Positions 2-13,627 of a DNA stretch of 20,027 bases are shown here, piece by piece. The position numbers and the translations under genes were made by a program. Under the pieces are notes generated by a model. It was not told the DNA's origin, did not search any database, and saw only the letters and a list, made by a program, of their open reading frames with translations. The stretch comes from a virus: positions 1 through 20,027 of the IMG/VR virus record IMGVR_UViG_3300036715_002971, one strand, 5' to 3'. The stretch's first letter is position 1; every line of letters begins with the position of its first letter.

Positions 2-970
2 AGCGCTCCAGCAAATGCTGCTAAAGATTTCACTCTTTCAGTTCGAGCGATGTTTCCAAGTTCTCACTCAGTAAGTGATTCTAGCCATCGCGTAATTTTT
101 GGTGTAGGTCCTGACCCAATTACATCGGCTCAAGTTGGAAATTCTGCATACATTGGTAGAGCCTCGAACGATCTTGTCGGTTATTTTAACGATGGAACCC
201 ACAACATCACAGCGACCATTCCAAGTTTCTTTACCAACTACGCTGACAAGACAACGCATATCACATTGGTCAATTCTTCAGGGTTCCCATTGTTCTATAT
301 AAACGGTGTTACAGCAGAGACAGTAATAACAAGCACTCTTGGAGTCGGACAATCTATTGCAGGAATTAGCTCAAGTTATGTTGTAATGGGCCAAGCTCGT
401 AGCACTTACAATAACGCCTGCACAATTTTTGAAGCTCAAATTTGGAACAGAGCTCTCGCGTCGTCAGGTTCACTAGAAGCATTCTTTGCTGGTCCAAGAG
501 CGGATTCTTCGTTGATTACGTCGTATCTTCCAACAAATCTAAATCCAGAACCTTCTCAGTGGCTCGATGCTCGTGGCCGCTATCATTTGATTCTACCAAC
601 AGCTGGAGCGATTACAACAAATCCTTCTAAGGAATTTAACTTGAGATTTGCTGTATCTGCTTCCGGTTATTTGGGTAATGGTTCGGCTCGAGACATTCTC
701 CCAACGAACTACGTTTTGACTTCATGTGTTGTATCATCGAGTGCTAAACCTTTACTTACAATTGGTTCTTCTGTGTCTACACCAACAACCGGTTCAAGCG
801 GAACCGGATCATATTATAACAATCGTGTAGCTTGGGTAAGCGCATCTTATGGTATTAACACACTTGACATTCTTCCACTGGGAGCAGCTCATTCTGACAA
901 GACTCTGTTTGTGAGTATGTCGGGAGACAATGTTTGCTCGTTTGATTTCCAAGGTTACATTAGAGATTAA
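2..970 (+). CDS. Tail-fibre-like protein, LamG-like domain plus fibre C-terminal domain (5' truncated)
   Basis: The reading frame is open from base 2 to a TAA at 970, so the start lies upstream of the window; 322 residues are visible. The first ~160 residues resemble a laminin-G/concanavalin-type jelly roll: a sugar-binding-like beta domain with the late signature [20 protein letters not shown], which recalls the LamG W-N-R-A-L-s motif. Residues ~180-322 look like a phage tail-fibre C-terminal beta domain, with FNLRF, SGYLGNG and [10 protein letters not shown]. The likely role is surface or glycan recognition on the virion. It runs straight into three further appendage genes, with 5 bases to the next ATG. 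Domain assignment is from pattern memory; no catalytic residues are recognised. Confidence 0.75.
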
Positions 971-975
971 ATAAA

Positions 976-3258
976 ATGACAAACGGATTACCAAGCCACG
1001 GCAGCCCAGAAAATAACGTTTACGGTATAATTGGAACTGTCCTTTTTACCGATGAAGGTAAATCGTATATCAAGCAATTGAACGATACTCTGAACACAGG
1101 TTGGTCAGAAATTCCAGCTCCAGAAAGAGTTCAATTTGAGAGTCTGTCACTTACTTCCGTTTCACAATTTGGAACAAGTTCTGCTGACTCACCAAATTTG
1201 CAGTTTCGTTTGTTGAGCGGAACCGCTATCGTTAGGGTCGATGTAGTATGTAATACGGGCGGATATGTTTTTACTCCTTCACGTCCATTGTGGGTTCAAT
1301 TCGATTCAGCATCAGCCGTTACAACGACATCGGGTTCTTCACTATCCTTCGTAACATCTGAATTTGGTGGAGGCTGGTATTCAGTCCGAACAAGCTGCCA
1401 AAGTGATGAAAAAATTAATTTGACAATCACGGTCACTAAGGTTGGAGGATACGGTCCACAATTTACATCAGCCCAAGCCTACGCAAAAATCAATTCTAGC
1501 AACACCATGTTGCTTCAGGTATATAATACCAATCAATTTTCTACCGGTAAGGCTCGTTTCTATGATTCGACCAACAACTATCTTCCAGTATCAAGTAATC
1601 CAAATTACTCATATGACCTAAACGGTGATGTAGTGAATAACTACGCAAGTTTTACAGGCGGCGGCCAAATTAATTGTTTGGGTAGGTCTAATATCGGTAG
1701 CGATATTATTGGACTACTTGAAATCGTTGATTATAACGCTGACAGCCTATCAACGCCTACGGTTTATCCATCCAAGGGAAATAGCTATACAGCATCTATT
1801 TGGTCAAATGGTCTTTCTCTATTTTCAAACACCTACACCGAATTATCAGCTACATCTTCTACAACTCAGTTAAGAAATTTGAATGAAGATTTTTCTATCG
1901 TAGAAACTGTAACCGTATCTGGAGGCCCAACATCGATTTCATTCACTGCTTCAGCTACTCCAATCACAGCATCGACGGTGATTGTCATTCCTGCAAGTAG
2001 TTCAATTTCGGTGATTTCGTCTTACAATGGAACGGCTGGTATTGCGGCTGGAGCGCCTAGAGTTCTTACTGCAGCTTCAAATGTAGGAAATTGTAATTAT
2101 CAACAATTCATCTACCCAGCGTCTACGCCAACGCCTACGCCAATCCCACCGACGCCAACACCTACCCCAACTCCAATTGGTTCAACACCTACCCCAACTC
2201 CAACTCCAACTCCTACAGCTGGACCTTCCTCTACACCTACCCCAACGCCGACTCCTACAGTAGCACCAACAGCCACCCCTACTCCTACGCCTACACCTGT
2301 TCCAGCCTTTACCTTTACGTCGGCTATATTCACCGCTTGGTCATACGGAACAGCGTATAATATAAATGGAACAGGCGCTCGCATTCCAAATAATTACGCT
2401 GCGGGATTTGAACTGACGGGAACAGCTGGAGCAACAACCGTTCAGGTCGTTGTTGAAGATGACGCCGGAGGTGCGTTCTCCAACGCCGTCATTGTAAGTG
2501 TCTTGAAGAATGGTTCAATCATTCGCACCGACACCGGAACAGGCCCATACACATACAATCTAACAACATCCGAAATCACGGATGGAGCTGGAATAAACGT
2601 GGAAGCTCACTGCGGCTCACAAAACTACAGTCCAAAAGTCCGTGTAACTGCTACAAAGTCTGGTCCAGGTTTGTTTAACGATTCTTCGATGAGATTCACC
2701 GGAAAGAATTGGTCAGGAGGTGGTGTTGGATTGGATGGACAAATTACTCTCGTCGGAGTTCCAATGGGCTGCAGCATCCCTTATTCAGCTGTTGTTGATA
2801 ATACGATGGGCGGATACGCTAAAACATGGACAAGTTCTCTTCCAGCCACGGTATTACAATACAACGTAAATCTTGATGGAACATCTCCAAATGGAACTGT
2901 TCGAACCAATTTTAATCCAACAGGAACTACCATTACATTCTACGCTAGTCGCACAACAGAAGGTGAGTCTGATTTGGAAATTGATACATCGGTTATTTCC
3001 CCAGCAAATCCAGCAGCACCGACCTACACACTTACGACAGCTGAGCTCGGTTCAGGAAATACAACGGGTGGAGGAAGTAAGACAGCCGGAACCTATCCTA
3101 CCATCACCGGAACAGGCACCGGTGGAGAGACGTTTGACCATTGGGATTCCACTGGCGCAGGCGTCAACAATACAAACGACATCACGGATTCTAGCTCATC
3201 GACTACAACAGTATTCGTGGATGGTCCGAAGACTGTTACAGCGACTTTCACTCCATAA
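976..3258 (+). CDS. Mosaic virion appendage protein (A-B-PT linker-C-InlB repeat)
   Basis: A 760-residue protein whose N-terminus has the phage fibre attachment pattern: SPENNV, then a Gly, then Y-I-K, then NTGW (residues ~10-43). This pattern is common in tail-fibre and appendage proteins that attach to the particle. Domains in order: A (1-~235), shared with the next gene; B (~246-380, starting IGLLEIVDY), shared with the gene after that; a (Thr-Pro)n linker (~383-444); a unique beta-rich region C (~445-680); and a bacterial-repeat/InlB-B-like domain (~683-760) with [13 protein letters not shown] and KTVTATFTP. No signal peptide or catalytic motif is visible. Start ATG 976 follows the upstream stop by 5 bases with only a weak upstream GAG, so coupling is likely. 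Probable structural protein involved in host contact. Confidence 0.8.
2121..2306 (+). repeat. Degenerate Thr-Pro coding repeat, linker 1
   Basis: An imperfect tandem of 6-base units of the type CCNACN encodes about 62 residues of TPTPTP interrupted by short spacers (IG, AGPSS, VAP). It separates domain B from domain C of the 760-residue protein. Wobble bases vary widely, so the protein repeat is conserved more strictly than the DNA repeat. Confidence 0.9.
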
Positions 3259-3262
3259 TTAA

Positions 3263-4360
3263 ATGAGCCTAGGCCTACCAAGTTACAATGAGCCAGAAAA
3301 TAATGTTGATGGAGTTAAAGGTAATTCTATCAGCACAGTTTCTGGAAATGCTTACATAAAGCATTCTGGTGAATTTACAAATACGGGATGGGTAAAGACA
3401 CCAACAGCTCAGGTTCTTCAATTTGAAAGCGTGTCAATGACAGCAAATTCTCAGTATGGGGATTCTGCGAATGACGCACCAACATTAAAATTTGTCATTC
3501 CATCTGGAAATGCTATCGTTAGAGTTGACGTTTCAATTAGCGGTTACACCTTTGGTGTTGGTCACGAATTGGCAATGTGGGTAGATAATAGTTCGGTTGT
3601 AACTCAAAACTCTGGAAGTTTGTGTAGCTATATTACAAAGACCTTATACGCCGGAATCCACACTGTTCGGTGCACGGCTCGTAGTAGTCAGAAAATTCCA
3701 ATGACTATCACCGTTACTAAAGTTGGCGGAATGGGAGGCCAGTTTACCAATGCTCAAGCTCTTGGTAAAATTGGACCAAATGACCCATTACTGTTAAGAA
3801 TTTATAACACAAATTCTTATGGTAGAGGAAAAGCTCGTTTCTTTGACGTAACGAATCAAATTCAACCGTCAGGAAGTAATCCAAATTATAGTTTTAATCT
3901 ACAGACAAATACAACAAGCAATAGTTGTGTATTTTCAGCCGGTGGAGAAAAGGTATTTTCCGGTCTATCGCTTGTTGCGGCTCCTGCAGCGACCCCGACT
4001 CCTACTCCTACGCCGACTCCTACTGCGACACCTGTTCCAACAGCCACACCTACAGGAGCTCCAACAGCCACGCCTACTCCTACACCAACGCCAACGGCAA
4101 CGGCTACCCCTACGCCTACACCGGTGCCTACACTTTTCCACCTTTCCGTTAATGGTGGACAGCCTGGAATAGCTGGAACATCCGGTGTTGGATACTACGC
4201 GGCTGGAACGGTTGTTCCAGTAAGTGCTACGATAGCAGATGGATATACATTTTTAGCTTGGTCAGATGATGTAAGTTACTTACAAAGTGGTCAGTTCACA
4301 AATCCAAATACAATCTTAATGCCAGCTCTTGATATTGGTATCACTCCAACAACTTCATAA
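3263..4360 (+). CDS. Mosaic virion appendage protein (A-PT linker-InlB repeat)
   Basis: A 365-residue protein. Residues 1-~240 are paralogous to domain A of the upstream 760-residue protein: both have [44 protein letters not shown] and SNPNYS/F. A (Thr-Pro)n linker follows (~243-290), and then a bacterial-repeat/InlB-B-like domain (~292-365) with LSVNGGQ, GYYAAGTVV and YTFLAWSDD. It therefore lacks domains B and C of its neighbour. ATG 3263 is 4 bases after the preceding TAA, with no clear Shine-Dalgarno. Likely a virion fibre or decoration protein made with its neighbours. Confidence 0.8.
   Translation: MSLGLPSYNEPENNVDGVKGNSISTVSGNAYIKHSGEFTNTGWVKTPTAQVLQFESVSMTANSQYGDSANDAPTLKFVIPSGNAIVRVDVSISGYTFGVGHELAMWVDNSSVVTQNSGSLCSYITKTLYAGIHTVRCTARSSQKIPMTITVTKVGGMGGQFTNAQALGKIGPNDPLLLRIYNTNSYGRGKARFFDVTNQIQPSGSNPNYSFNLQTNTTSNSCVFSAGGEKVFSGLSLVAAPAATPTPTPTPTPTATPVPTATPTGAPTATPTPTPTPTATATPTPTPVPTLFHLSVNGGQPGIAGTSGVGYYAAGTVVPVSATIADGYTFLAWSDDVSYLQSGQFTNPNTILMPALDIGITPTTS
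3991..4131 (+). repeat. Degenerate Thr-Pro coding repeat, linker 2
   Basis: Tandem CCNACN-type units encode about 47 residues of TPTPTP with interspersed Ala, Val and Gly. They link domain A to the InlB-like domain of the 365-residue protein. The unit type matches the linkers in the two neighbouring genes, so inter-gene recombination is possible. Confidence 0.9.
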
Positions 4361-4361
4361 T

Positions 4362-5732
4362 ATGAACAACGAATACATTGGACTTATTGAAGTAACAGAT
4401 ATTGGAGGAGTATTCTCCACCAATCCAACAGCTCAATCAACAGCTACAGAATTGCCAATTTATTGGTTGGGTGGATTTTCTTCCACAAACGATAATTTTT
4501 CACAAAACGTAACGAGTTCAGCCGTCAAATATCTTTACAACCCAAACGATTTTTCGGTAAACGTTAATTACAAATTGACTGGAACTCCTTTGACTGATAG
4601 CACATTTTTATCAGGTTCTCTTATTTCAAATTCAGCCGGGTCAATTGGACCAAATCGGTATACACCAATTACCGCTTCGTATAACGGAGCGGCTGGTCTT
4701 GGTTTCCAAACATTGTCTATCAGTTCAAGTGTTTCTTTGGTGACATACACTCAAAACGTAATAGTTGGAGCTCCTCCTACGCCAACACCTACGCCAACTC
4801 CAACAGCTACTCCTACTCCTACGCCTACACCAACGGGAATTGCCCCTACCCCTGCACCTTCTGTATACCATCTTTCCGTCAACGGAGGACAAGCGGGAAT
4901 CATTGCTTCACCAACACAACCTGATGGTGGTGCTGGTTATTACTCTCCAGGAACAATTGTTAATGTGAGCGCAGGTATTGCTTCAGGATATGTGTTCAAC
5001 GCTTGGTCTGATGATATTGGATACCTTCTGGATGGTCAATTTGCAAATCCAAATAGAATTTTGATGCCATCTACGAATATCGGAATAACCCCGACAGCTG
5101 TTCTAATTCCTGTTGATTTTCAATTTACATACATTTCGGCTACCGGAAACACTTACTTAGGTGGCAACAACAATCTATCTATTACAGTTCAACCAAATGC
5201 ATCGGCCGACGTAGGATTGTTAATTGACTTAACCGCTGATAGCGTTATTTCTCCAAGTCATTCTGTAACAATTATCCTAAAGGATGTTGTATCAAATTCT
5301 ACAATTTGGTCTACGACTATTACAACTGCTATTTTGGTAACTAACAGTATTAATTTACCGACAGCAAATAACAAGTATTCTCTCACAATTAGCGCTGCTC
5401 ACAGTTTACCAAATACTGTATTCGCTTCTGTTTCGAGAACGGGTGGCGGAAATTTTGTATATGGTTCCGCTCAATGTGTGATAGATTTAACAAATGCTGC
5501 AAGCTGCAATGTCAGCGGAATACCAACGAATTCAACGTATCATTATAATATCAGAAATGCTACATACACTTCTCACAACTTTGATTCCTACACAATTGTA
5601 GATTCTACCGGAACAAAATCAATGACAAGTGTAGGCGACGGTGTAGGAGCAGCACCCGCTTACAGTATCGGTTATATTGAAATTGTTCCATTGTCGGTAG
5701 GATTCTCCCACCCAACACTATCACCATCGTAA
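4362..5732 (+). CDS. Mosaic virion appendage protein (B-PT linker-InlB repeat-unique C-terminus)
   Basis: A 456-residue protein. An in-frame TTG lies upstream at 4329, but ATG 4362, one base after the previous TAA, is the better start: it begins MNNEYIGLIEV, aligning with domain B of the 760-residue protein (IGLLEIVDY). Domain B (~1-137) is followed by a (Thr-Pro)n linker (~137-167) and an InlB-like domain (~168-247) nearly matching the previous gene's (LSVNGGQ, GYYSPGTIV, FNAWSDD, ILMP, IGITPT). A unique beta-rich region (~248-456) completes it. It lacks the SPEN..NTGW attachment domain A, so it may need a partner for attachment, perhaps the preceding protein. No enzymatic motif is seen. Confidence 0.8.
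   Translation: MNNEYIGLIEVTDIGGVFSTNPTAQSTATELPIYWLGGFSSTNDNFSQNVTSSAVKYLYNPNDFSVNVNYKLTGTPLTDSTFLSGSLISNSAGSIGPNRYTPITASYNGAAGLGFQTLSISSSVSLVTYTQNVIVGAPPTPTPTPTPTATPTPTPTPTGIAPTPAPSVYHLSVNGGQAGIIASPTQPDGGAGYYSPGTIVNVSAGIASGYVFNAWSDDIGYLLDGQFANPNRILMPSTNIGITPTAVLIPVDFQFTYISATGNTYLGGNNNLSITVQPNASADVGLLIDLTADSVISPSHSVTIILKDVVSNSTIWSTTITTAILVTNSINLPTANNKYSLTISAAHSLPNTVFASVSRTGGGNFVYGSAQCVIDLTNAASCNVSGIPTNSTYHYNIRNATYTSHNFDSYTIVDSTGTKSMTSVGDGVGAAPAYSIGYIEIVPLSVGFSHPTLSPS
4771..4860 (+). repeat. Degenerate Thr-Pro coding repeat, linker 3
   Basis: A short tandem of CCNACN-type units encodes about 30 residues, mainly PTPTPTP with a few Ala, Gly and Ile. It connects domain B to the InlB-like domain and is the shortest of the three linkers. 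Confidence 0.9.
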
Positions 5733-5794: not shown

Positions 5795-7060
5795 ATGGGA
5801 ATGGAGATTACACCAAACGATAAAATATTCGTCCAAATTGCCTCATATCGAGACCCTGAACTTGTTCCAACCATCCGAGACTGTATTGCTAAAGCCAAAT
5901 ACCCAGAGAATCTAACTTTTGGCCTCTGTTGGCAACATGATGAAACTGAGACGTTGGGAGAATTTGCCACCGACACACGCTTTCGTGTAGAAGACCATCA
6001 CTACTCTAAGAGTCAGGGTTTAGGTTGGGCCCGTAGTATTACAAACAAACTTTATGCTGGGGAGAAATATACTCTACAATTAGACAGTCACCACAGATTT
6101 GTCAAAGATTGGGATATGATACTTCTCGAAGATTATTCTCAGGCCCTATTGGTTTCAAAAAAACCAATTATCACAACATATTGCACCCCATTTGACACAA
6201 AAGAACCGATAGAAAAAGCTGGGCCTGTTCCTTGTTTGATGGCACAGTATGAATTCAGCAGCGATAAACTTTTGATGAGCAGACCAAGCTATATCACGGA
6301 TTACAAGACCAGAAATACCGTTATTCGTGCCCGCACCCTTTCTGGACATTTCTATTTCGTTTCTGGAGATTTTATTAAAGAAGTTCCATATGACCCAGAC
6401 ATTTATTTTGGTGGTTATACAGAAGAAACAACTATGAGTGTTCGAGCTTACACGAGTGGATATGATTTTTTTAGTCCATATAGAATGTTGATGTGGCACG
6501 AATACACAAGAAACTACCGTGTCAAACATTGGGACGACCACGGTATCAAAAGTGAAACACAAAAAACAAGCGGAGAAAGAGACATATTCGCTCGGCACAA
6601 AACTCGTCAAATTTTTGGACAAGACGATTTTAAAATCGATTTAGGAAATTTTGGGTTGGGAATCGTGAGAACCCTACACGATTATGAGGTTTATGGGGGA
6701 TTTAACTTTTCAAAGTGCCTCATTCAAGACTATACCTTGTTAGTAAAAGAACCACCCAATCCGATTGATTGGGAGGAACAATTCAAGAAAATCAAAAAGA
6801 AAATGACCGTCTCTTGGGACATCGAGCATTTCAAAGCGGAAGATGAAGGTGGTTTTGATTTTATCACATTTGGTGTATTAGACAAGTTCTTCACAAACAT
6901 CGTAAGGTTTGATTTTAAACCACACACCCATCCAAACATATTCAATTACAGCCAGAATTCTATTGAGGTAGAACTGATGGGAGATCATCCAGCCGAATCT
7001 TTAGTAATGTATGCTTTTAAGAAAGGTAACTGGTGTAAACGATACGAAAAGAAATTATGA
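5795..7060 (+). CDS. Glycosyltransferase, GlcNAc-transferase family (GT60/Skp1-transferase-like)
   Basis: A 421-residue protein starting at ATG 5795 (an upstream in-frame TTG at 5783 and ATG 5801 are alternatives). The N-terminus, IFVQIASYRDPELVPTI followed by AKAKYPENLTFGLCWQHD, is characteristic of the PF11397 'glycosyltransferase (GlcNAc)' family, which includes the eukaryotic Skp1 hydroxyproline GlcNAc-transferase. The acidic metal/nucleotide-sugar site is LQLDSHHRF (D97-S-H99). A later conserved stretch runs FGGYTEE then WHEY. It has no signal peptide or membrane segment, so a cytoplasmic enzyme is expected. It follows the Thr-Pro-linker proteins and precedes further glycan genes, so a protein acceptor is plausible though unproven. 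No clear Shine-Dalgarno precedes it. It ends in an ATGA overlap with the next gene. Confidence 0.85.
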   Translation: MGMEITPNDKIFVQIASYRDPELVPTIRDCIAKAKYPENLTFGLCWQHDETETLGEFATDTRFRVEDHHYSKSQGLGWARSITNKLYAGEKYTLQLDSHHRFVKDWDMILLEDYSQALLVSKKPIITTYCTPFDTKEPIEKAGPVPCLMAQYEFSSDKLLMSRPSYITDYKTRNTVIRARTLSGHFYFVSGDFIKEVPYDPDIYFGGYTEETTMSVRAYTSGYDFFSPYRMLMWHEYTRNYRVKHWDDHGIKSETQKTSGERDIFARHKTRQIFGQDDFKIDLGNFGLGIVRTLHDYEVYGGFNFSKCLIQDYTLLVKEPPNPIDWEEQFKKIKKKMTVSWDIEHFKAEDEGGFDFITFGVLDKFFTNIVRFDFKPHTHPNIFNYSQNSIEVELMGDHPAESLVMYAFKKGNWCKRYEKKL

Positions 7061-7662
7061 AAACAGTTTATAAACTATATGTGAAAGAATCTCCGCTTGG
7101 ACTGAAATATTTGGGTGTCACCAAAAACGATCCGATAGAGTATCTTGGTAGTGGATTGTTGTGGCAGAGACATTTAAAAAAACACAAACTAAAATCGAAA
7201 AATATAAAAACTAAAGTTTTGCTTGAAACCGAAAACAAGAATGAGTTGATAAAAAAAGGAATCTATTTTAGCAACTTATTTAATGTGGTGGAAAGTGATG
7301 AATGGGCAAACCTCAAAGTTGAGTCTGGTGAAGGCGGAAGCTTACCTTGGTCAGAAGAAAAAAAACGTCAATTTGGTGAAAAAAGAAAAGGAAAAAAGAA
7401 TCCATTTTATAGAGGAAAACTAAGCGAAGAACACATGGCTGTAATAAAAGATAGATGTGGAAAGAAAAACCCCGTGGCTCGATCTGTAGAACAAATTGAC
7501 ATCAACAGCGGAAAAGTCATTAAAATATTTGAAACTATTAGAGAAGCCTCAAAATCAATAAAAGTTTTACATTGTAGAGTGTGGGCTGTCTGCAACGGAA
7601 ATTTATCAAGAGAAGACAACTATCTAACTTCCGGTGGATATGTTTGGAGATATACAAAATGA
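7057..7662 (+). CDS. Free-standing homing endonuclease-like protein with NUMOD3 and NUMOD1-type modules
   Basis: A 201-residue basic protein. The N-terminal ~90 residues (YKLYVK, GLKYLGVT, YLGSG, WANLK) match a phage module usually annotated as a putative homing endonuclease; I cannot assign its nuclease fold with certainty. Residues ~110-130 (KGKKNPFYRGKLSEEH) are a NUMOD3-type DNA-binding motif. Residues ~143-201, with VEQID, then IFETIREASKSI and ending GGYVWRY, resemble NUMOD1. Its start overlaps the upstream stop (ATGA at 7057), and its stop overlaps the next start (ATGA at 7659). It is likely an intruder lodged between two glycosyltransferase genes without disrupting translation. Confidence 0.8.
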   Translation: MKTVYKLYVKESPLGLKYLGVTKNDPIEYLGSGLLWQRHLKKHKLKSKNIKTKVLLETENKNELIKKGIYFSNLFNVVESDEWANLKVESGEGGSLPWSEEKKRQFGEKRKGKKNPFYRGKLSEEHMAVIKDRCGKKNPVARSVEQIDINSGKVIKIFETIREASKSIKVLHCRVWAVCNGNLSREDNYLTSGGYVWRYTK

Positions 7663-8825
7663 GAATAGCTTTTATTTTGATTGGAAACAGTAGGCGTAGT
7701 AATTTTTTAACTGGTGACACAATACGATCCGGTGGCGGGGGAGCTTCCGGCACCGATACCAGCACCATACTCATTGCTGAACATTTAGCATCCGTTGGAC
7801 ATGAAGTTGTTGTTACGAGCGATTCTTTGGAATCACCCTTGATGGAAAAATATACAAGAGAAGGTAAGTCCTTGATTCACGGCGAAAAAATTCGAAAAGT
7901 AATTTACACGAACATAAATTTTGACGGTGTAGAAAATAAAAATTTTGACATTCTTATCAGTAGTCTTTGGGTCAAAGATTATGACAAACTTCCCATCAAA
8001 GTTACAAAGGCGATTATTTATTGGTGCCACATGCAATGGTGCTATTCAATAGACGAAATCGTTGAATATGTTAAAAAAAATAATCTCAAATTAGCCTTCG
8101 TTAATATTTCTAATTGGGAAAAGTCACACACCCAAGGCGTCATCGATCACGCAGCACGTGCTGTTGGAAACGTGACTCAGGTTCTCATCCCCAATCCAAT
8201 TATGACTGATGAGATTGAAAAAATCTTGGCACTCAACTTACCAAAAAAGAAACACAAAGTAGTGTTTCATGCCTCATGGGCAAGAGGCGGTAATGTAGCC
8301 ATACAAACTGTTCGTGACCTTGGTTGGGCAGATGCAGAGTTCCATGCGTTTGACTACTTGATGACAATTCACGCACACAATGACCCATATTTTAACATTC
8401 ACATGGGAGTGGATAAATGGACACTGTTTCGTCATATAGCAGAAGCTGAATATTTCATTTACCCTCTCTATACACCTTATACCGATGTCCACAAGGATAC
8501 TTTTTCATGTGTAGTAGCTGAAGCACTGGCATTTGGGACAACGGTTGTCACGTATCCTGTGGCAGCTCTTCCAGAATATTACGGACCATACTGTGAGTGG
8601 GCCGATTTTCCAATGGGAGTTGATGTGGAAAGATTGAAGAAAGATGCTCTGACGAAGGAAACTAAAATGGATACAACAGCTCCACTTGTTAAAAAGATTC
8701 AAGAGCTCGAAGCGAACCCTGAACTTCGTCTCATTAAACTACCACTAGCTTCACGCTACATCCTTGACAGCTTTAACGTTCCTAAGATCGGTGGTATGTG
8801 GGAGAGTTTCATCAATGAACTTTGA
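7659..8825 (+). CDS. Glycosyltransferase, GT4-like (GT-B fold)
   Basis: A 388-residue protein. ATG 7659 is chosen over an upstream in-frame codon because it begins MRIAFILIG, has GGAG eight bases upstream and overlaps the previous stop as ATGA. The N-terminal Rossmann half has a Gly-rich loop (GGGGASGTD) followed by AEHLASVGHEVVVTSD. The C-terminal half has VVFHASWARGG, then the typical acidic E-x7-E-like donor site DTFSCVVAEALAFGTTVVTY followed by ALPEYYG. The donor and acceptor are not predictable. Its partners in the cluster are a GlcNAc-transferase-family protein upstream and UDP-galactopyranose mutase downstream (11-base overlap), so it may act on the same glycan, perhaps as a galactofuranosyl- or other hexosyl-transferase. 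Confidence 0.8.
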   Translation: MRIAFILIGNSRRSNFLTGDTIRSGGGGASGTDTSTILIAEHLASVGHEVVVTSDSLESPLMEKYTREGKSLIHGEKIRKVIYTNINFDGVENKNFDILISSLWVKDYDKLPIKVTKAIIYWCHMQWCYSIDEIVEYVKKNNLKLAFVNISNWEKSHTQGVIDHAARAVGNVTQVLIPNPIMTDEIEKILALNLPKKKHKVVFHASWARGGNVAIQTVRDLGWADAEFHAFDYLMTIHAHNDPYFNIHMGVDKWTLFRHIAEAEYFIYPLYTPYTDVHKDTFSCVVAEALAFGTTVVTYPVAALPEYYGPYCEWADFPMGVDVERLKKDALTKETKMDTTAPLVKKIQELEANPELRLIKLPLASRYILDSFNVPKIGGMWESFINEL

Positions 8826-9900
8826 TTACATCATTGTTGGAGCCGGATTATTTGGAGCCACTTGCGCTCACGAACTTCATAAGGCGGGGAAAAAGGTTTT
8901 GGTTATCGAATCTAGGAAGCACATTGGTGGAAATTGTTACACCGAAAATCGTGATGGTATAAATCTTCACGTTTATGGTCCGCACATTTTCCATACAAAC
9001 GACGACGAAGTGTGGAAGTGGATTAATCAGTTCACGGAATTCAATAATTTTGTTTACACCCCCATTGCCAACTACAAGGGAAAAATGTATTCTCTTCCAT
9101 TTAACATGTGGACATTTAATCAGCTTTGGGGATGCACTACACCAGAACAAGCGAAGAATATCATCAAAAATCAATCTCTCCACATCGAAGACCCAACCAA
9201 TCTTGAAGAACAAGCTATTAAATTAGTTGGAAAGGAAGTGTATGAGAAACTCATCAAAGGTTATACAGAAAAGCAATGGAAAAAACCTGCGACGGAATTA
9301 CCCAAAGAAATCATAAAGAGATTGCCGGTTCGTTTTACTTACGACAACAATTACTTCAATGACAAGTATCAAGGTATTCCGATTGGGGGTTACACCAAAA
9401 TTTTTGAGAAGTTGTTGGCGGGGATTGATGTTCGTTTGGACACGGATTTTTTCAAAACAATCCTTCCATCCCACAACAAGATAATTTATACCGGCCCAAT
9501 TGATAAATTTTTCAATTACAAACACGGACCTTTAGAATACAAGACAGTTCAATTAGAGCACCTACACGTAAAAGTGCCAAACTTTCAAGGAGTAGCTTGT
9601 GTGAACTATACTGATTCAGAAACAGCTCACACGAGAACCATTGAACACAAGCACTTCGAAAAATTGGATACTCCTACGACATGGGTAAGCTGGGAAACTC
9701 CCGTAGCGTATGAACCAGAAAAAACAGAACCGCTGTATCCGGTCAATGACAAGGTGAACACCGAAATCTATAACAAGTATGCAGCGGAAACTGTTACGCG
9801 AGAAGATGTTATTTTTGGCGGGCGACTTGGAGAGTATAAATACTATGACATGGCTCCGACTATCTCAAGCGCATTGAAGTGTGTAAAGAAATTATTATAG
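8815..9900 (+). CDS. glf: UDP-galactopyranose mutase
   Basis: A 361-residue flavoenzyme that interconverts UDP-galactopyranose and UDP-galactofuranose, the precursor of Galf-containing glycans. ATG 8815 starts MNFDYIIVGAG and overlaps the upstream gene by 11 bases; a GGGAGAG stretch lies about 8 bases upstream. Visible family motifs: the FAD dinucleotide-binding loop GAGLFGA (9-15), E32 at the end of beta-2, IGGNCY (37-42), GPHIFHTN (55-62), and near the C-terminus GGRLGEYKYYDM, which carries the conserved active-site Arg region. Length fits bacterial Glf (~360-390). It is the last gene of the glycan cassette. In phage the Galf could modify virion proteins, DNA or the host envelope. Confidence 0.95.
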   Translation: MNFDYIIVGAGLFGATCAHELHKAGKKVLVIESRKHIGGNCYTENRDGINLHVYGPHIFHTNDDEVWKWINQFTEFNNFVYTPIANYKGKMYSLPFNMWTFNQLWGCTTPEQAKNIIKNQSLHIEDPTNLEEQAIKLVGKEVYEKLIKGYTEKQWKKPATELPKEIIKRLPVRFTYDNNYFNDKYQGIPIGGYTKIFEKLLAGIDVRLDTDFFKTILPSHNKIIYTGPIDKFFNYKHGPLEYKTVQLEHLHVKVPNFQGVACVNYTDSETAHTRTIEHKHFEKLDTPTTWVSWETPVAYEPEKTEPLYPVNDKVNTEIYNKYAAETVTREDVIFGGRLGEYKYYDMAPTISSALKCVKKLL

Positions 9901-11455: not shown

Positions 11456-11599
11456 ATGGGAAGAAAAAAATTATACAAAACGGAAGAGGAACAAAAAAAT
11501 GCAAGAAGCAAGCGAAATAGACGATATTATGACAAGCACAAAGACGAACTCAACAGAGAAGCCATGCAAAGATACTGGAAAAAGATTGAGAAGAAATAA
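11456..11599 (+). CDS. Small basic helical protein
   Basis: A 47-residue protein starting at ATG 11456: MGRKKLYKTEEEQ followed by an Arg/Lys-rich helix with RRYYDKHKDELN and QRYWKK. Small proteins with this MGRxKxY...RYYxKxK pattern occur in viral genomes, but no function is established that I can name. The charge suggests nucleic-acid binding. It overlaps the downstream GIY-YIG frame by 101 bases in the +1 register. Its amino-acid pattern looks selected here, whereas the overlapping frame does not. No Shine-Dalgarno precedes the ATG, and the TATTTATA motif ends 3 bases before it. Confidence 0.55.
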   Translation: MGRKKLYKTEEEQKNARSKRNRRYYDKHKDELNREAMQRYWKKIEKK

Positions 11600-12338
11600 T
11601 GTCGGTGTTGGCGTGGTATATCGGGCAATATGTTCTGTGAATGGCAAAGTTTATATCGGCGTTACGTCTCAAAAATTGAGTGAACGAGTCCGAGACCATG
11701 TAAAATTATCTAAGAGAAGTAATCCAAAATATCTGTTTAACCGATCTATCAAAAAATATGGTCAAGAAAATTTTGTATTTTCTGAGATTGATACGTTTGA
11801 CACAATAGAGGAAAGAAATAAGAAGGAAGTAAAACACATCAAAGAACACAATTCATTTCATCTAACGGGCCGCGGATACAATATGACACTTGGCGGTGAT
11901 GGAAGTAGTGGGCATGTAAAATCTCAAGAAGCCATCCAAAAAATAAAAGACGCTAGAGCCAAACAAATGTTTAGTCAAGAGACGAGAAATTTGTGGTCAA
12001 AAAATAGAAGAGGAAAAAAGAGATCAGAAGAAACAAAAACAAAAATATCTAAATCAAAAATTGGTCATGTTGTTACAAATGAAACTCGAGAAAAATTGAG
12101 AGTAGCAAATTTAGGAAAAATAGCATCCAAAGAAACTCGATACAAAACATCGATGAGCATGATCGGAAAGAATAGAAAAATAATCTCAATTGAGGACATG
12201 AACACAATTGTTAAGTTGTATAAAACACTTGGATTACACAAAGTTCGGTTAGAATTGAAAAAATTGGGTATATTTATTAGTTCGGGAAGAATAAAACGAA
12301 ATTTACAAAACATCGGTATATACAGAACTAAAACGTGA
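11499..12338 (+). CDS. GIY-YIG homing endonuclease with NUMOD3-type repeats
   Basis: A free-standing endonuclease, 279 residues if read from ATG 11499, which has GAGGA eight bases upstream. The catalytic domain starts at ~38: GVVY (38-41) and VYIG (51-54) are the two halves of GIY-YIG, followed by the R63/R65 helix, catalytic E110 in KKEVKHI, and N128 in GYNMTLGGDG. Basic NUMOD3-like segments follow (RRGKKRSEETKTKISKSK, NETREKLR), with a possible helix-turn-helix near the C-terminus. The first ~34 residues lie in the alternative frame of the small basic gene and look non-conserved, so TTG 11586, GTG 11613 or a frameshifted fusion are alternatives. Its stop overlaps the next GTG. Confidence 0.8.
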   Translation: MQEASEIDDIMTSTKTNSTEKPCKDTGKRLRRNNVGVGVVYRAICSVNGKVYIGVTSQKLSERVRDHVKLSKRSNPKYLFNRSIKKYGQENFVFSEIDTFDTIEERNKKEVKHIKEHNSFHLTGRGYNMTLGGDGSSGHVKSQEAIQKIKDARAKQMFSQETRNLWSKNRRGKKRSEETKTKISKSKIGHVVTNETREKLRVANLGKIASKETRYKTSMSMIGKNRKIISIEDMNTIVKLYKTLGLHKVRLELKKLGIFISSGRIKRNLQNIGIYRTKT

Positions 12339-13627
12339 AATTGAAACACATATTGTTGGAAATTGATAAGGACAACGCGGCTCTGGAATATTTATCCGAT
12401 TTGGTGAAATCTGGTCCGTATAAAAATAAGGTATTTCTAGCCGGAGGAAGTCCTAGAGATATGCAACTGGGAATGTCCCCGAAGGATTTGGACGTTGTTG
12501 TGAAAGGAGACGTAAATGCCGGTATTGATTTTGCGACATGGGCGACTAAAGAAATTGAGAAAAGAACTGGAAAACCTGTTCATCCAACTGTAACGTTTCC
12601 GACTTATGGAACGGCAAAATTTACTCTCCAAGGCGTCACGTATCAAGGTCACGATTTGAGTGACATTGACGTTGAGTGCGTAGCTCCACGTAAAGAAAAG
12701 TATACTCCGGGAAATCGTAAGCCGGAAGTTTCGGGAGGAGAATTGGAAGATGACGTAAAGCGTCGGGATTTTACTGTAAACAGTCTTCTCCACGATTTGA
12801 CAACGGGAGAAACCCTTGACCTCACAGGAATGGGTAAAGATGACATCAAAGCCGGAATTGTTCGCACTCCTCTTAACCCAGATGTTATCTTCGGAGAAGA
12901 CCCACTGAGAATTTTGAGAGCTGCTAGATTCACCGCCAAATACAATTGGAAGTTGCCAATGTTCATGCTTCGTTCTATTAAGAAGAATGCTCGTCAACTC
13001 ACTAATATTTCGAAGGAACGCATCCATGATGAGCTCAATAAGATGCTTTTGACGGATTTTCCTTTCAAAGCGTTTCGTCTCCTACAAATCTTAGGATTGA
13101 TAAAATATACCTTTCCCTCGTTAGATGGACAGAGTTTGGAACACATGAAACTGATGAGCAAGTTACCAAAAGAACTTCAAATTAGATTGATTGCGGCACT
13201 GAAAAATGTCCCACCATCAAAGATACAGTCGGAGATGTCTTTGTTACGATACAATCTTGACAACATTAAAACTGTGGTGATGGTAGTTGACCGACTTTCC
13301 GACTTCTTGAAAAAAGTCCAAAATCTCTCTGACGACGACCTTAGACGTTACCGTATGGAAATACCTGACTATTTCCCTCTTCTTGTCACATATGCTTCAA
13401 TCTATGTTCCATCTGCAAACATTGGTGACATCAACGGAAGATATTCGGCACTATCATCAGAAATGACCGTAAATCCAATCCCTGTAACTGGAGCAGATTT
13501 GATTTCTATGGGACTCAAGCCTGGCCCAAATTTCAAGAAGTATCTCGACATGGTAAAGAATCTATATATACAGAACCCAAAAACGCCTAAAGACGATTAC
13601 TTGAAAGCTATCCACAACGCACTATGA
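12335..13627 (+). CDS. cca: CCA-adding enzyme (class II tRNA nucleotidyltransferase)
   Basis: A 430-residue enzyme expected to add or repair the 3' CCA of tRNA. Class II motifs visible: LAGGSPRD (35-42) with D51-L-D53 as the metal-binding DxD of motif A; IDVECVAPRKEKY (~111-123) supplying the third acidic position; RRDFTVNS (143-150, motif B); and EDPLRILRAARF (188-199, motif D, base-selecting). The helical C-terminal body/tail follows. GTG 12335 overlaps the preceding stop (GTGA) with no obvious Shine-Dalgarno. No tRNA gene is seen in this window, so it would serve phage tRNAs encoded elsewhere or host tRNAs. It could also act as a poly(A) polymerase, which this family cannot exclude by motif alone. 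The N-terminus MKLKHILLEI resembles that of the next gene. Confidence 0.92.
   Translation: MKLKHILLEIDKDNAALEYLSDLVKSGPYKNKVFLAGGSPRDMQLGMSPKDLDVVVKGDVNAGIDFATWATKEIEKRTGKPVHPTVTFPTYGTAKFTLQGVTYQGHDLSDIDVECVAPRKEKYTPGNRKPEVSGGELEDDVKRRDFTVNSLLHDLTTGETLDLTGMGKDDIKAGIVRTPLNPDVIFGEDPLRILRAARFTAKYNWKLPMFMLRSIKKNARQLTNISKERIHDELNKMLLTDFPFKAFRLLQILGLIKYTFPSLDGQSLEHMKLMSKLPKELQIRLIAALKNVPPSKIQSEMSLLRYNLDNIKTVVMVVDRLSDFLKKVQNLSDDDLRRYRMEIPDYFPLLVTYASIYVPSANIGDINGRYSALSSEMTVNPIPVTGADLISMGLKPGPNFKKYLDMVKNLYIQNPKTPKDDYLKAIHNAL

Follow-up and report, generated by a model that had tools for sequence, protein, structure and literature searches.

How did three neighboring phage genes come to carry the same modules in different arrangements, and which arrangement came first? 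This question is raised by positions 976 to 5732 of the IMG/VR virus record IMGVR_UViG_3300036715_002971, the whole of which (20,027 bases) is referred to here as the window. The genes g1 (976-3258, 760 amino acids, aa), g2 (3263-4360, 365 aa) and g3 (ending at 5732) form a compact run that follows the gene of a LamG-type protein, g0, all four on the plus strand. A preliminary description of this DNA, made from the sequence without database searches, gave these coordinates and the 760-residue first protein correctly and read the products as A-B-PT-C-InlB, A-PT-InlB and B-PT-InlB-unique, where PT is a Pro-Thr linker. We found that this appendage-gene mosaic is real, and it probably consists of linker-joined, swappable modules, with g2 and g3 having been split from a g1-like A-B gene.

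Close relatives were found in two viral contigs, IMGVR_UViG_3300047678_000239 (G001; orthologs h0, also called g0', h1, h2 and h3) and IMGVR_UViG_3300007523_000008 (G002; orthologs k2 and k3, the contig start falling inside the g2 ortholog). Viral scans with g1, A, g3 and B returned only these contigs and a scan with g2 returned nothing; tblastn with g1, A and the LamG fiber gave no match in 50,697 phage records, and g3 as a query against genome contigs gave no relative. The productive handle for wider relatives was the downstream PF11397 glycosyltransferase, not the appendage genes, and it yielded 80 loci (L029-L108; loci of relatives are numbered L###). Because an in-frame stop lies two codons ahead of the equivalent ATG in both close relatives, the start of g3 was placed at ATG 4362 (456 aa) rather than at TTG 4329. 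The features of the run are as follows.

976-1113, plus strand: N-terminal anchor of g1, aa 1-46.
1123-1761, plus strand: A-type beta domain of g1, aa 50-262, homologous to A of g2 and, via bridging families, to D of g3; also modeled with AF2.
1705-1731, plus strand: terminal strand IGLLEIVDY, aa 244-252, inside the g1 A-type domain.
1783-2115, plus strand: module B of g1, about aa 270-380, matching g3 B by profile; Ig-like/PapD-like sandwich in the model (VIA-align Z up to 7.2).
2116-2307, plus strand: PT linker of g1, read from the sequence.
2308-3024, plus strand: module C of g1, part of a C-InlB block that also occurs in L084.
3025-3258, plus strand: InlB-like tip of g1, subtype 1, plus stop; below the PF18998 threshold, with a homologous L084 unit above it.
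3263-3400, plus strand: N-terminal anchor of g2, aa 1-46, 46% identical to the g1 anchor.
3410-3973, plus strand: A-type domain of g2, aa 50-237, without the terminal IGxxE strand, as judged by alignment to g1 A and a low motif score.
3974-4132, plus strand: PT linker of g2, read from the sequence.
4133-4360, plus strand: InlB tip of g2, subtype 2, plus stop (PF18998, E 9e-8, over the cut-off).
4358-4364, plus strand: g2/g3 junction TAA T ATG, a single base between stop and start.
4377-4397, plus strand: orphan terminal strand IGLIEVT of g3, aa 6-12, right after the start codon; identified by the AD-end profile, unfolded in the g3 model.
4455-4766, plus strand: module B of g3, aa 32-135, matching g1 B by profile; PapD-like sandwich (Z up to 9.1).
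4767-4865, plus strand: PT linker of g3, read from the sequence.
4866-5105, plus strand: InlB unit of g3, subtype 2 (PF18998, E 2.3e-7).
5106-5732, plus strand: module D of g3, an A-type domain by profile comparison and model, with the end IGYIEIVPL (5664-5690), plus stop.
2-970, plus strand: g0, C-terminal part of a LamG-type fiber protein whose 5' end is cut by the window, without PT linker or tip; weak Pfam Laminin_G_3 match.
5801-7060, plus strand: adjoining PF11397 glycosyltransferase (Pfam E 2.3e-55).

PT linkers were left out of all module comparisons. The A domains of g1 and g2 are 47% identical (E 4e-63; hhalign profile P 1.5e-52). B of g1 and B of g3 share 26-30% identity, and as profiles, B(g1,h1) against B(g3,h3,k3), they gave P 5e-13 across 130 columns (hhalign). 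The InlB units of g2 and g3 (61-64% identity, E 1.6e-27) both passed the curated cut-off of 23.6 bits for PF18998 (Flg_new_2, a divergent InlB B-repeat) with 32.4 and 31.1 bits. The g1 unit represents another subtype, only 25-28% identical to the other two, and missed the cut-off with 20.5 bits; the L084 block homologous to g1 C-InlB exceeded it with 28.4 bits. These A-A, B-B and InlB-InlB homologies bear out the combinatorial reuse of modules that had been proposed, on a scale wider than the preliminary description could see. The InlB units had been called near-identical, which is true of their ILMP and IGITPT motifs (exact in g2 and g3) but not of the units as wholes. It is barely conceivable that all of this is generic beta-protein and low-complexity similarity, the outcome that the preliminary description had named as fatal to its own proposal: the PT linkers are indeed of low complexity and every module is beta-rich, but with PT excluded the E-values went down to 4e-63, and reversed-sequence controls of the comparison between A and D, the last domain of g3, gave P of about 0.3 to 0.5.

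That last domain had been considered unique. Compared directly, A and D gave P of only 0.0017-0.016; with bridging domains from L030, L031 and L033 the value was 5.5e-9, and with a domain from the L084 contig added it was 4.2e-11 over 182 columns (0.3 in the reversed control of this match). A and D thus belong to one family, referred to as A-type or AD, and the end of g3 is a divergent A-type domain, the third in the run; the B, PT and InlB parts assigned to g3 stand. C as a further divergent A domain was rejected; it has no detectable similarity to A, B or D. In AF2 models, the first sandwiches of A (residues 54-156) and D (255-361) matched the same SIDT1 domain, both at its residues 47-167, as well as one and the same domain of 3afg, at Z of 6-9, a range where chance matches occur too. 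B of g1 and B of g3 both matched the same CEP192 SPD-2 domain. Foldseek matches of both models were weak in TM-score and were taken solely as a consistency check.

The evidence on the order of events comes from a short motif, IGLLEIV in g1 and IGLIEVT in g3, which had already been noticed as common to both. The A/D ends found outside g2 and h2 follow one pattern: hydrophobic-hydrophobic-Glu-hydrophobic, mostly with IG at its start and with F..P or FDP after it. A position-specific profile trained only on the ends of other A/D domains scored 17.4-17.8 in g1, 23.5 in h1, 15.6 at aa 6 of g3 and 21.1 at aa 6 of k3, and 21.3 in the L084-contig domain, which is independent of the training set; the strand-lacking domains scored -1.3 to 0.9 (g2) and 0.6 (h2). 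Only 4 and 3 of about 568,000 background windows ranked ahead of g1 and g3, respectively, and the shared motif is accordingly not generic. It is the last beta-strand of A/D domains. In the AF2 model of g1 A plus B, a prediction that the preliminary description had suggested, residues 244-252 form a confident strand that closes A (block pLDDT 86), and a hinge modeled with low confidence leads from it into B. The g3 model leaves aa 1-31 unfolded and places B at residues 40-135. Structural matches of B start past the motif in both, mostly at 269-281 in g1 and at 26-42 in g3. Since the motif is a strand in the g1 model and the B matches begin after it in both proteins, g3 opens with the last strand of a domain that is absent from g3. 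A stretch close to the end of g0, at aa 285-300 (window about 854-901), resembles the A/D terminal motif (IGYIEIVPLSVGFSHP); its score is low and the resemblance may be due to chance.

The strand is complete in g1 and h1, absent in g2 and h2, and an orphan at the N-termini of g3, h3 and k3, whereas D and the A/D domains of L030, L031, L033 and the L084 contig hold it in cis. As g3 begins with the A-type terminal strand that is missing from A of g2, the cut fell inside A and not exactly between A and B, where a PT-InlB insertion, or alternatively a junction of two fused genes, had been placed. And as other A/D domains keep the strand in cis, the separated g2/g3 state appears to be derived. The opposite direction, in which g1 would have been formed by joining a g2-like gene (anchor-A) and a g3-like gene (strand-B and following modules), with the two-gene state being older, we regard as unlikely. 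Fusion would also give a g1/g3 homology boundary exactly at the g3 start codon, as is observed, and both states coexist in G001, the relative covering all three genes; however, a g3 start with an A-type terminal strand, in view of the cis position of this strand in all other A/D domains found, presupposes an earlier A-B gene.

The split itself is not a recent event in this phage. Gene order in G001 (g0'-h1-h2-h3) is the same as in the window, and G002 contains a g3 ortholog besides the partial g2 ortholog. Identities between A domains were 80% for g1/h1, 61% for g2/h2 and 41-46% for g1/g2-type pairs. Alignments and separate trees of A and B, which had been proposed as checks, showed homology and parted the g1 copies from the g2/g3 copies: A grouped as ((g1,h1),(g2,h2)), and in the B tree g1/h1 stood apart from g3/h3/k3. 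These groupings indicate that the duplication predates the divergence of these phages; the split, too, is old: the relatives have it as well, and it occurred before they diverged.

The tips behind the linkers changed within this conserved order. At the g2 position, the domain behind the PT linker is InlB in g2, PKD-like in h2 and, in k2, a third domain matching neither by profile. Orthologous proteins thus carry unrelated C-terminal domains, a pattern by which domain mosaicism is recognized in phages. The h2 tip has no curated Pfam PKD match, only a SprB repeat match of 25.5 bits, under its cut-off of 28, and is called PKD-like by eye only. The 2204-residue tail fiber of G001 ends in the same tip, again behind a PT linker (37% identity, E 2e-16). 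The orthologous fiber of G002 lacks this tip; its end looks by eye like an S74-type chaperone, and the next gene is a small one that has PT and a Cys-rich tip. The long tail fibers of G001 (L018 6761-12001) and G002 (L027) have a common body, 69% identical in part, and different ends. Beyond D, the window g3 has nothing, and the other two g3 orthologs have two different extensions. Neither the k2 tip as InlB-like nor the k3 extension as kin of the kt tip had profile support, and recent copying of InlB from g3 to g2 within the window was not supported.

The same modules were detected on other carriers among the wider relatives. The g1/g2-type anchor of 44-46 residues leads straight into PT and other domains in L030, L031 and L033, as well as in a 597-residue gene of the L084 contig (anchor-PT-InlB-Ig-AD). 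Orthologs of the LamG protein with PT linkers and tips occur in five loci (L030, L031, L033, L079 and L084); in L084, the whole g1 C-InlB block stands behind LamG-PT (5923-8928, E 3e-53) and an InlB unit stands behind another LamG-PT. In L033, A/D domains are placed behind the anchor or behind LamG. Thirteen cross-carrier module matches extended beyond the mere linker, and most of these span the whole stretch between two linkers or reach to the end of the module. Homologous fragments are therefore present on otherwise unrelated proteins, which is the other mark of mosaicism: C-InlB on g1 and a LamG fiber, the PKD-like tip on h2 and a tail fiber. The module arrangement is not local to the window, and modules would move between carriers at PT linkers. 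Very glycine-rich PT-linked tips (GGGGGG runs) were also seen on different carriers (L030 204-1265, L031 472-1527 and L034 7194-8933).

These carriers bear on a simpler account, plain tandem duplication and divergence with internal deletions, in which the linkers are passive and no cassettes pass between carriers. The three genes are adjacent, and in both phages the A and B trees set the g1 copies apart from the g2/g3 copies, as such an account would have it; yet the same tips sit on LamG fibers, a long tail fiber and anchor genes, and orthologs have unrelated tips, which makes it very improbable.

Under the split-and-exchange reading, g1-g3 would encode surface-exposed appendage proteins (fiber or decoration) of an uncultured tailed phage with a T4-type baseplate. 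Their beta-rich modules would be joined by Pro-Thr linkers that give the protein flexible spacing and the DNA sites where joining is tolerated, so that the part behind a linker could be replaced without harm to the part ahead. Modules would be traded among anchor-type genes, the LamG-type fiber and the long tail fiber, within and between genomes. The ancestor of g2 and g3 would have been a copied, g1-like anchor-A-B gene, interrupted just before the last beta-strand of A by a PT-InlB cassette that brought in a stop and a new start, so that g3 would open with that strand. One such entry explains g2 and g3 in a single step, and fusion into g1 is possible only as a reversal. Exchange of tips presumably diversifies what the particle sticks to; an adhesive or receptor-binding function of the tips is suggested by the domain types and by nearby tail and baseplate genes, the linked baseplate genes in L017 being gp25-like and wedge-like.

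Several points weigh against this reading. h3 has a weak AD-end motif (score 7.7; 616 of the background windows rank ahead), though it aligns with g3 and k3. Outside g1/h1, no intact A-B gene was found among the relatives, so the direction of change rests on parsimony. The g2 InlB unit is equally close to g3 and h3 (64% each), and the time and source of the g2 tip move therefore cannot be told. Linkers share exact DNA stretches of up to 20 bases and the remainder of the genes share almost none; these stretches (14-20 bases) may reflect the repeat alone and are too short to decide whether they are recombination sites, so that exchange at PT-coding DNA is no more than plausible. The anchors and the neighboring baseplate genes suggest a putative placement on the particle.

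A further, rather doubtful idea is that the A domain of g2, short of a strand, takes up the N-terminal g3 strand IGLIEVT; the donated strand would hold the divided domain together, both proteins would go on functioning as a unit, and the phage would have obtained a two-chain, two-tip appendage from one gene. If true, such putative strand donation would show a cassette insertion creating a heteromeric appendage in one step.

Among the neighboring genes, Laminin_G_3 matched h0, the complete ortholog of g0, more strongly than g0. The PF11397 (GlcNAc) glycosyltransferase adjoins PT-linker genes far beyond this clade: a PT-linker open reading frame was present within 300 bp of a relative of the enzyme in 31 of 73 viral loci and anywhere in the locus in 55. 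The isolated phages XacN1 and RAS14, which have a distant relative of the enzyme, have no annotated fiber gene beside it; PT linkers were not scanned for in them. The PT linkers are possibly O-glycosylated. For a linker-modifying prolyl hydroxylase, no PF13640 match was found in three records. Two likely homing endonucleases were also seen in the window, one at 7057-7662 between two glycosyltransferase genes (weak NUMOD1 match) and the other at 11499-12338 (GIY-YIG and NUMOD3-like repeats by eye), just before a tRNA nucleotidyltransferase-like gene. The latter gene looks complete both in the window (12335-13627) and in L017; in G001 (L006 20205-20756) it is truncated and runs into NUMOD-like repeats.

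This locus offers a readable case of how phage surface proteins may be rebuilt, in which unstructured PT linkers would act as generic joints that make tips movable among unrelated carriers, and a gene cut inside a folded domain amounts to a natural experiment. Receptor-binding proteins were identified as a hotspot of domain mosaicism in a survey of 133,574 phage proteins (Smug et al. 2023, PMC10684548), in which homologous domains occur in different arrangements and N- and C-terminal parts are swapped in otherwise unrelated proteins, and the window is a case of this known kind. A search of the text of that survey found linkers, paralogs and duplication nowhere mentioned, whereas here we see PT joints, several carriers per genome and one intradomain break. 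Modular Ig-like/PKD/BACON adhesins of gut phages conferred epithelial adhesion upon display (Apjok et al. 2026, PMC13370021); compared with those adhesins, the present proteins carry InlB-like, A/D-type and B-type domains on PT linkers and have no link to the gut. Set against the PF18998 InlB B-repeat, the difference is that each unit stands singly behind a PT linker on a phage protein; the one in g1 falls below the cut-off. Literature text searches found no paper on PT linkers as joints in phage fibers, which is not proof of absence. To the known mosaicism the window adds two features: a joint, the PT linker, that several carriers of one genome have in common, and an intradomain cut that left a strand on the neighboring gene; strand donation between g2 and g3, should it occur, would be new.
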